64,000 nt of DNA from assembly GCA_030637515.1 (NCBI GenBank), contig DAOWGM010000051.1, positions 62,001 through 126,000 on the forward strand, read 5' to 3'. The position numbers were made by a program, and so were the translations under genes. Within the stretch, counting starts at the first letter, position 1. Every line of letters starts with the position of its first letter. Below the pieces are notes generated by a model. That model worked only from the letters and a program-made list of their open reading frames with translations, made no database searches and was not told the DNA's origin. Shown here piece after piece: positions 40,552 to 41,179 of the stretch. Source of the DNA: Bacteroidales bacterium (GTDB taxonomy: Bacteria > Bacteroidota > Bacteroidia > Bacteroidales > UBA12077).

Positions 40552-40625
40552 GGCGAGGTAGCTCAGATGGTTAGAGCGCATGATTCATAATCATGAGGTC
40601 GGCGGTTCAATTCCGCCTCTCGCTA
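40552..40625 (+). tRNA. tRNA-Met (anticodon CAT), elongator type
   Basis: The cloverleaf is complete: acceptor GGCGAGG pairing with TCTCGCT (positions 1-72 a G-U pair), D arm AGCTCAG..TTAGAGC, anticodon stem CATGA/TCATG with loop TTCATAA, and T arm GGCGG-TTCAATT-CCGCC. The discriminator is A and CCA is not encoded. The lack of three G-C pairs in the anticodon stem argues against an initiator. It resembles elongator Met more than the lysidine-modified Ile2 type. Its 3' half is partly repeated at 40945-40988. Confidence 0.95.
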
Positions 40626-40631
40626 CAAAAA

Positions 40632-40657
40632 GCAAGTCAGAAATGGCTTGCTTTTTT
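40632..40657 (+). terminator. Terminator of tRNA-Met
   Basis: The stem GCAAGTCA / TGGCTTGC with loop GAAA is followed by six T, directly after the tRNA. Confidence 0.8.
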
Positions 40658-40674
40658 AATTTAAAAAAGACGAG

Positions 40675-40920
40675 ATGTTTTTTGTTTATATTTTATACAG
40701 TAATAAAAGAGATCGTTATTATATTGGATATACATCAGAAATTGAAAATAGAGTTGCAAAGCATAACGTTGGTTCAACAACATCAACAAAATCAGGTATT
40801 CCGTGGGTGTTAGTCTATAAAGAAGAGTTTGAATCAAAAACAGATGCTATAAAACGAGAAAAAGAAATAAAAAGGATGAAAAGCAGAAAGTATATTGAAA
40901 GATTGATAAAAATGAATTAG
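40675..40920 (+). CDS. GIY-YIG nuclease domain protein
   Basis: This 81-residue protein is a stand-alone GIY-YIG endonuclease domain. The two motif strands appear as VYILYS and YYIGYTS. The conserved Arg is in ENRVAKHN, and the putative metal-binding Glu is in the region KREKEIKRMKSRKYIE. Small proteins of this group are abundant and multicopy in Bacteroidota, and their function is not settled; relatives include UvrC, homing endonucleases and YhbQ-like proteins. There is no DNA-binding accessory domain. Its position between an intact tRNA and a duplicated tRNA end suggests involvement in, or passage with, the insertion. Confidence 0.85.
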   Translation: MFFVYILYSNKRDRYYIGYTSEIENRVAKHNVGSTTSTKSGIPWVLVYKEEFESKTDAIKREKEIKRMKSRKYIERLIKMN

Positions 40921-40924
40921 AGTG

Positions 40925-40973
40925 TCCCGATTTACAATCGGGAAGGTCGGCGGTTTCCCGATTGATATCGGGA
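40925..40973. repeat. Two REP-like palindromes with the same arms
   Basis: The first hairpin is TCCCGATT / AATCGGGA with loop TAC (40925-40943). The second is TCCCGAT / ATCGGGA with loop TGAT (40956-40973). They flank the 11-bp tRNA-derived block GGTCGGCGGTT. The shared arms and tight spacing resemble a REP pair. Confidence 0.65.
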
Positions 40974-40988
40974 CCTCTCGCTACAAAA
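40945..40988 (+). pseudogene. tRNA-Met 3'-end remnant, interrupted by a palindrome
   Basis: Two blocks identical to the tRNA (11 bp and 15 bp) are in the right order, with 18 bp of palindrome in place of 8 bp of the T arm. It cannot fold as a tRNA. A CAAGTCA / TGACTTG hairpin follows at about 40990-41012, as after the intact tRNA. Confidence 0.8.
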
Positions 40989-41179
40989 GAACAAGTCATT
41001 TTTGACTTGCTCTTGTTGTATAAGGAAGGATATGCAGTTTAATTTTGTCACTTACTGCAAAATGGAGTAGATCGTTGAGAATTATTCTACATTTAATTCA
41101 GATCACAGAATAATTTACTGCAATTCACTTGTTTTTGCAGGTTTTAGTCGATGGTGTTTATCTTCATGTAAATATTTCA

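Follow-up and report, generated by a model that had tools for sequence, protein, structure and literature searches.

How did a nuclease gene of 81 codons come to lie between an intact gene for tRNA-Met and a second copy of this tRNA that is broken? The question is raised by one locus in the window, by which we mean the whole 64-kb stretch of DNA that was analysed. The original prediction, made from the sequence of the window, read the locus as a GIY-YIG gene inserted at the 3' end of the tRNA, with the tRNA end and the terminator duplicated, and proposed a minimal element of about 360 bp with a homing-like mode of spread. That interpretation, taken as a whole, was partly supported.

The tRNA-Met locus

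The order of parts that had been described (intact tRNA-Met, its terminator, the 81-aa GIY-YIG gene, tRNA blocks and a second hairpin) was borne out by exact repeats, an Rfam match and a PF01541 match (Table 1). Two exact direct repeats tie the tRNA to its copy: one of 12 nt, AGGTCGGCGGTT, at 40596-40607 in tRNA-Met and 40944-40955 in the copy, and one of 15 nt, CCTCTCGCTACAAAA, at 40616-40630 and 40974-40988. The hairpins at 40628-40657 and 40985-41014 are 83% complementary to each other, as expected of two related hairpins.

Table 1. Features of the tRNA-Met locus, in window coordinates
Feature	Position	Strand	Basis
Intact tRNA-Met(CAT)	40552..40626	+	Rfam tRNA, 69.9 bits
First terminator hairpin and T run	40628..40657	+	
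GIY-YIG nuclease gene, single domain, 81 aa	40675..40920	+	PF01541
TTAGAGTG, D-arm 3' part of the second tRNA copy	40917..40924	+	gapped comparison
Hairpin TCCCGATTTACAATCGGGA, in the anticodon-arm slot of the second tRNA copy	40925..40943	+	
AGGTCGGCGGTT, variable loop and T-arm 5' side of the tRNA copy	40944..40955	+	exact repeat
Second palindrome TCCCGATTGATATCGGGA, in place of the copy's T loop	40956..40973	+	
CCTCTCGCTACAAAA, acceptor 3' end of the tRNA copy	40974..40988	+	exact repeat
Second terminator-like hairpin, T run degraded	40985..41014	+	

The duplication of the tRNA end stands, but it is not the simple 3' end that had been proposed: the copy starts in the D arm and its anticodon arm is replaced. 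In a gapped alignment the duplication covers 85 nt, beginning at TTAGAG in the D arm and reaching the terminator, and the TAG stop of the GIY-YIG reading frame falls inside the D-arm-like TTAGAG of the copy. The anticodon arm has been swapped for a TCCCGA..TCGGGA hairpin, and a second palindrome of this kind splits the T arm. These two are the only matches to TCCCGAT-N1..10-ATCGGGA in the window, with a mean of 0.00 in 100 shuffles. A chance origin of the tRNA repeats was rejected on the palindrome shuffles, the gapped comparison and the wrong-amino-acid controls described below.

Between tRNA-Met and its copy, the open reading frames on both strands are the 81-aa GIY frame and shorter frames overlapping it, and none is a tyrosine or serine integrase. 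The seven flanking ORFs encode LptF/LptG, a START-like protein, phosphofructokinase, a POT transporter, YjeF/NAD(P)H-hydrate dehydratase and two glycosyltransferases. No integrase is among these seven, the only ones checked, and for them the earlier statement that none is present holds. Nor is there among them a Y1 transposase adjoining the palindromes; elsewhere the window's genome has two Y1 matches.

The GIY-YIG protein

The 81-aa protein matches PF01541 with E=3.4e-15 and 56.5 bits against a cut-off of 22.6, and has no match in NCBIfam or PHROG. GIY-YIG nucleases have two tyrosines, an arginine and a glutamate as conserved catalytic residues; in a 22-row alignment, Y5, Y16, R26, H30 and E62 are invariant. 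The nearest solved structures by profile are 1zg2 and 1ywl (UPF0213), followed by the structure-specific SLX1, whose matched chains are 183-324 aa long against 81 aa here.

In 17 protein pairs with dS <0.6 the dN/dS ratio was 0.05-0.42, although these pairs share a few loci and include one from loci with no tRNA (L083/L087), and so do not count as 17 independent tests. The full set of 3374 pairs, most of them distant, had a median of 0.45, with 15 pairs at or above 1. As judged from codon substitutions, the close pairs show purifying selection.

Spread of the family and linkage to tRNA genes

With the window protein as query, matches were found in 35/59 genomes (its own and relatives, E <=0.001), and with the family alignment as query in 73/149 genomes of the order (E <=1e-8), a few of them in long ORFs. 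A collection of 84,980 species yielded 257 relatives; the best 80 of the 257 loci were kept, and these come from Bacteroidetes groups, Ignavibacteria, 'Chlorobi', Melioribacteraceae and Neomarinimicrobiota. Beyond the first loci, 60 further places were picked from the match list of the 59 genomes, a selection from its rows. Loci are partly shared between the genome sets, and ORFs identical in sequence and near flanks were counted once.

To count tRNA remnants, ORFs >260 aa and matches of <55 profile positions were excluded, the best tRNA within 700 nt was taken, and the threshold was set at a score of 26. A duplicated piece of the neighbouring tRNA was found at 105/201 distinct GIY ORFs across the three genome sets (37/94 in relatives, 14/23 in the order and 54/84 in named species), and a same-strand tRNA lies within 120 nt at 36/94, 13/23 and 56/84, respectively. 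The homologues thus show a strong association with tRNA genes of which a piece is duplicated, an association that the original prediction had put forward as its check. In the wrong-amino-acid control, in which each of 108 downstream regions was compared with five tRNA 3' ends of other amino acids, 28/540 comparisons reach the threshold; the control is somewhat lenient because it uses one wrong tRNA per trial and the test the best tRNA within 700 nt.

The intact tRNA lies upstream of the GIY gene and a 3' remnant downstream in 86 of the 105, here called class I. A duplicated 3' end does not hold as the plan of the whole family, since the remaining 19/105 have the opposite order, with the intact tRNA downstream, a remnant of the 5' half upstream and often another palindrome. 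The remnant tRNAs belong to 13 amino acids by ARAGORN (Ala, Val, Met, Lys, Arg, Leu, Asn, Gly, Asp, Phe, Pro, Thr and His, the last three once each), and some of these labels are calls on altered copies, such as 'Phe(aaa)' in L015.

At the other 96/201 GIY ORFs no remnant reached the threshold; the reasons include contig ends, which are frequent at GIY/tRNA repeats, and a group without tRNAs among GTCAT-type repeats. The window's own remnant falls below 26 because its T loop is split, and reaches a score of 40 only in the gapped comparison; it is outside the 105, and its protein is outside the tree described below. L199, a case like L009, has a remnant score of 19.

Several other arrangements were seen. 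The window's genome carries three more stand-alone GIY-YIG genes (L002, L003 and L004) with GTCAT..GAATCT-type repeats on both sides, and no tRNA was found near them. A mirror-image plan occurs at tRNA-Arg (L024, L054, L060, L062-L065 and L069): the upstream sequence and the 5' half of the tRNA are broken by CCTGCCTGCCGGCAGGCAGG or a near copy, the GIY gene follows, and its end reaches or enters the intact tRNA. At L080 a repeat before the GIY gene contains, next to a GTCTC..GAGAC palindrome, what looks by eye like the beginning of a Y1/RAYT transposase gene.

Carriage by phages or plasmids was also considered, and was rejected on the lack of a PHROG match and on the distance of the matches in phage records (9/50,697) and plasmid records (4/72,556), all of them <60% identical.

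Presence and absence at orthologous loci

The tRNA-Met locus was followed by its LptF-START-tRNA-Met synteny in 20 congeneric genomes, of which 17 gave one full-length match each and three gave none or a partial one. This GIY type is present in 7/17 (truncated by a contig end in one genome and doubled in tandem in another), and the locus is empty in 5/17. One of the 17 has a different GIY lineage (37% identity), one has a gene start that appears decayed by eye, two retain, again by eye, only a tRNA 3' scar and a second terminator, and one is too short to judge because its contig ends. The cleanest empty site (L146/L115) reads tRNA, terminator, phosphofructokinase.

A similar picture was found at tRNA-Val(TAC), where the analysis covered the 15 full-length matches of 29. 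The gene is present in 6/15 and a fragment of it in 1/15, the downstream side is empty in 4/15 (one of which, L283, has broken copies upstream), and 2/15 are too short to judge. The last 2/15 have by eye only a scar, and one of these is the window's own genome (L284), which has no GIY gene at this tRNA. Empty alleles, which the proposed insertion calls for, exist at both the tRNA-Met and the tRNA-Val loci of relatives. With the tRNA linkage described above, the proposal thus withstood both of the outcomes that it had named as refuting it. No filled and empty site among the genomes compared make a near-identical, same-species pair, so the exact junction is not fixed.

The proposed size of about 360 bp agrees with tandem units of 351-354 bp in two genomes, but other tandem pairs are spaced 294-706 bp apart.

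The rewritten anticodon arm

The replaced anticodon arm recurs across the family. Among the 84/86 class-I remnants that could be aligned, a hairpin of at least 6 bp lies in the 45 nt before tRNA position 44 in 66, compared with 1/84 when each was shuffled once, and 53 of the 66 start with TCCCG. In 55/84 the hairpin occupies the anticodon-arm slot itself (ending at most 3 nt from position 44); 50 of these 55 start with TCCCG, four have variant stems, and one (L245) is an unaltered tRNA-Gly arm. Altered hairpins thus fill the slot in 54/84 remnants, of 7 amino-acid types. The TCCCG stem is nearly identical across Ala, Lys, Met, Val, Leu, Asn and Arg remnants, whereas the native anticodon stems differ.

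The loops behave otherwise. Comparing the letters inside the first and last five bases of 44 distinct hairpins (window and L009 added; L245, L220 and L247 excluded), the mean likeness to the anticodon loop of the hairpin's own tRNA was 4.36, against 3.78 (sd 0.15) when isotypes were permuted, and 0/2000 permutations matched the observed value. An earlier set of 42 hairpins gave the same outcome. Because the loop resembles the tRNA's own anticodon loop, the stem looks as if it was rewritten around a tRNA-derived loop rather than dropped in as a finished palindrome.

Some altered copies are full length and above the Rfam tRNA cut-off (L203 with 37.9 bits, and several tRNA matches in L223), so the remnant may have started out as an entire tRNA. 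T loops, too, are replaced by palindromes (the window, L009, L279 and L285), and some terminator loops contain them.

Arrays of full-length tRNA-Val-like copies, several with a hairpin for the anticodon arm, were seen in L015 and L223. In L203/L014 the upstream tRNA-Met lacks, by eye, a normal 5' half, and the downstream copy is nearly whole with its anticodon arm replaced; a genuine interruption instead of a duplication is possible there. The tRNA-Val remnants of L281, L284, L287 and L290 have a different, longer repeat (about TTTCTCATGAGCGAAGCGA..) in the T loop.

Host tRNA and protein lineage

For the 82 usable cases among 86 GIY ORFs with a tRNA <=120 nt upstream, the region downstream was compared with the element's own tRNA and with differing tRNAs of the same isotype. 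The own tRNA matched strictly better in 52/75, tied in 16 and was worse in 7. In 43/79 the likeness between the sequences that follow the remnant and the tRNA exceeded the 95% control level. When restricted to remnants scoring >=40, which makes the figures more favourable, the counts are 35/39 for the own tRNA and 24/40 for the terminator region. This would fit either recombination through the tRNA half, in which element and target each supply a 3' half and terminator, or repeated recent copying.

A protein tree was built from 114 rows and 84 columns; it is weakly resolved, and it leaves out the ORFs without a remnant except for nine rows with no tRNA. Mapped on this tree, the 21 isotype labels require 36 changes (1 for Lys, 2 for Val), against a shuffled mean of 85.2, and 0/200 shuffles were as low, with near-copies in tandem contributing to the clustering. 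The labels Leu-CAA, Arg-CCT, Arg-TCT and Gly-TCC are unclustered (500/500 shuffles as low). Opposite-order Arg-type elements and a few others make one group with support 99, and the nine no-tRNA rows, relatives of the L002-L004 type, make another (support 91) apart from the rest. Indirectly, the tree suggests that protein lineage may go with target tRNA.

Dispersed palindromes and Y1 transposases

Palindromes like those of the tRNA copy are also dispersed. The window's genome has the pattern TCCCGA-N2..12-TCGGGA at 34 places and the reversed control at 4. TCCCGATAGCTATCGGGA was found in 21/149 genomes, with GIY in 20/21 of them and in 53/128 otherwise; CCTGCCTGCCGGCAGGCAGG was found in 13/149, with GIY in 13/13 and in 60/136 otherwise, a GIY association that is inflated by some CCTGCCTGCCGGCAGGCAGG copies lying directly beside GIY genes. 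The reversed controls of both gave 0 in the genomes listed.

Together the palindrome-positive genomes number 27/149, and they have GIY in 26/27 and Y1 transposases (PF01797) in 27/27; Y1 transposases are present in 103/149 genomes. Within GIY-positive genomes the palindromes go with PF01797 (26/26 against 36/47, p=0.006), and within PF01797-positive genomes they track GIY (26/27 against 36/76, p=2e-6). These are genome counts made without a species tree, and the mobiliser is not identified by them; because Y1 transposases co-occur, GIY as the sole mobiliser of the palindromes is not established.

Fifteen loci (L038-L052) from the 34 places were inspected, and show dispersed TCCCGATAGCTATCGGGA-like palindromes in the window's genome. 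In L042, L049 and L051 the palindrome sits in the loop of a terminator-like hairpin, and in L044 and L050 it is, by eye, maybe in coding sequence. At least 6 flank bases are paired at 4/15 dispersed loci against 25/210 crossed controls, with full pairing over 8 bases at three of the 15. Insertion at hairpin tips was rejected as a general rule for the dispersed palindromes on this weak difference.

How the locus may have arisen

At the level of sequence, the comparisons establish the architecture of the family: an intact tRNA with its terminator, a single-domain GIY-YIG gene, and a tRNA copy running from the D arm onward with a terminator. They likewise establish its recurrence over tRNA types, its presence, absence and decay at orthologous loci, its tandem occurrence and the rewritten arm. 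Based on these results, we think it probable that the locus represents one member of a family of minimal, single-gene, homing-like elements (about 350 bp here) which sit at tRNA genes and restore the tRNA that they enter. The nuclease would cut an uninterrupted tRNA gene in the T arm or the anticodon arm, and repair from an element-bearing donor through the shared tRNA half would insert the GIY gene. The element's own tRNA half and terminator would then complete the tRNA, so that insertion into a seemingly single-copy tRNA gene would be harmless. The rewritten hairpin may be the binding site of the nuclease, or a change that makes the element's copy uncuttable and non-functional.

Some observations count against homing. 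The intact tRNA adjoining the GIY gene should itself be a target, 96/201 ORFs have no remnant, 19/105 have the opposite order, four isotypes are unclustered on the tree, the upstream tRNA of L203/L014 looks damaged by eye, and L245 has an unaltered arm.

A bolder reading, possible but rather unlikely in our judgement, is that a hairpin-specific GIY-YIG nuclease and the TCCCG..CGGGA hairpin make up a new type of element. Such an element would use tRNA stem-loops as a landing site, turn the displaced copy's anticodon stem into the hairpin that it recognises, and give rise to the dispersed palindromes as well (TCCCGATAGCTATCGGGA, CCTGCCTGCCGGCAGGCAGG), as an analogue of RAYT/REP built on an unrelated enzyme.

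The GIY gene may instead be a passenger: an ordinary tandem tRNA duplication would have trapped it, and recombination between tRNA halves would carry or delete it without the gene driving anything. This agrees with the arrays of whole tRNA copies in L223 and L015, where some anticodon arms are altered, with the GIY gene between intact tRNA-Gly copies in L245, and with solo scars of the kind that, by eye, recombination would give. However, the low dN/dS of the 17 closest pairs, the kept catalytic residues, the isotype-linked protein groups and the same plan at many tRNA types favour an active nuclease over a passenger, which we regard as unlikely.

It seems still more doubtful that the hairpins are REP-like palindromes in their own right, mobilised by Y1 (RAYT/IS200-type) transposases, with dead tRNA copies as tolerant targets and an indirect link to GIY. 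PF01797 is present in every one of the 27 palindrome-positive genomes, with an association that holds within GIY-positive genomes, and the palindromes are also found in T loops and some terminator loops. Yet they still track GIY within PF01797-positive genomes, altered hairpins fill the slot in most alignable remnants over 7 amino-acid types, and the isotype-like loop kept in the slot hairpin is not expected from inserting a finished palindrome.

A use to the host is very improbable. Here the altered tRNA copy would serve as a regulator or a decoy, anticodon nucleases being one possible threat, and would be maintained or amplified by the GIY gene. Some altered copies are indeed full length and above the Rfam cut-off (L203, L223), and the available text of PMC13096335 describes phage SegB as amplifying tRNA-Tyr against Septu defence; but the remnants inspected mostly lack the 5' half and could not fold as tRNA, and frequent absence and decay argue against a steady host benefit. 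Least credible of all is descent from a conventional tRNA-targeting integrative element whose integrase has been lost: a tRNA gene with a duplicated tRNA part resembles att sites, but the seven flanking ORFs hold no integrase, tandem units are 351-354 bp in two genomes, duplicated tRNA pieces recur at 105 GIY ORFs, and the phage and plasmid matches are few and distant.

Relation to known systems and significance

The homing-like reading places the locus near several known systems. Tyrosine-integrase elements at tRNA genes have a duplicated tRNA part at their ends. Such elements and Tn7/CAST are like the window element in using tRNA genes as safe sites, but they carry a recombinase or transposase, and none is present in the flanking ORFs scanned here. 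Short dispersed palindromes or hairpin-tip insertions are also known from the small dispersed repeats and double-hairpin elements of cyanobacteria, and in REP/RAYT systems a conserved tetranucleotide adjoins the hairpin. The likeness to REP/RAYT lies in short dispersed palindromes tied to a nuclease gene, but the REP/RAYT enzyme is a Y1 transposase, whereas the palindromes here are accompanied by GIY-YIG, in genomes that also contain Y1 genes. The window gene also shares with free-standing homing endonucleases that it is present or absent at orthologous sites (tRNA-Met, tRNA-Val), and its closest structures by profile, UPF0213 and SLX1, were given above. As for CAST I-D, the text available for PMC10293859 places its homing 30-33 nt downstream of tRNA-Leu.

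SegB, a free-standing gene of T-even phages, is like the window gene a GIY-YIG gene among tRNA genes. The available parts of PMC13096335 describe it as a GIY-YIG enzyme which promotes recombination at tRNA genes and cuts inside them, with a RAWTSGAAC motif at 23/83 cleavage sites, and a table in PMC2988022 gives its insertion site as tRNA-Arg/tRNA-Ile. On our own reading, RAWTSGAAC would be the complement of the T-arm sequence GTTCSAWTY. SegB is phage-borne, whereas the window gene is chromosomal, 81 aa long with one domain, and part of a family at many tRNA types; and the available parts of PMC13096335 and PMC2988022 make no mention of a duplicated tRNA copy with a replaced anticodon arm. In the titles and abstract openings of open-licence PMC articles, no description was found of tRNA-linked bacterial GIY-YIG elements or of these palindromes.

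Should the homing-like reading be right, Bacteroidota and neighbouring phyla have been colonised by a one-gene element, a few hundred bp long, that homes harmlessly into tRNA genes, and homing into tRNA genes would extend from phages to chromosomes. Many orphan single-domain GIY-YIG genes would gain a function, the occurrence of broken next to intact tRNA copies would be accounted for, and the hairpin repeats of these genomes would have an origin that can be put to the test. The isotype-linked protein groups would be a panel for studying how a nuclease of 80 residues chooses its target.
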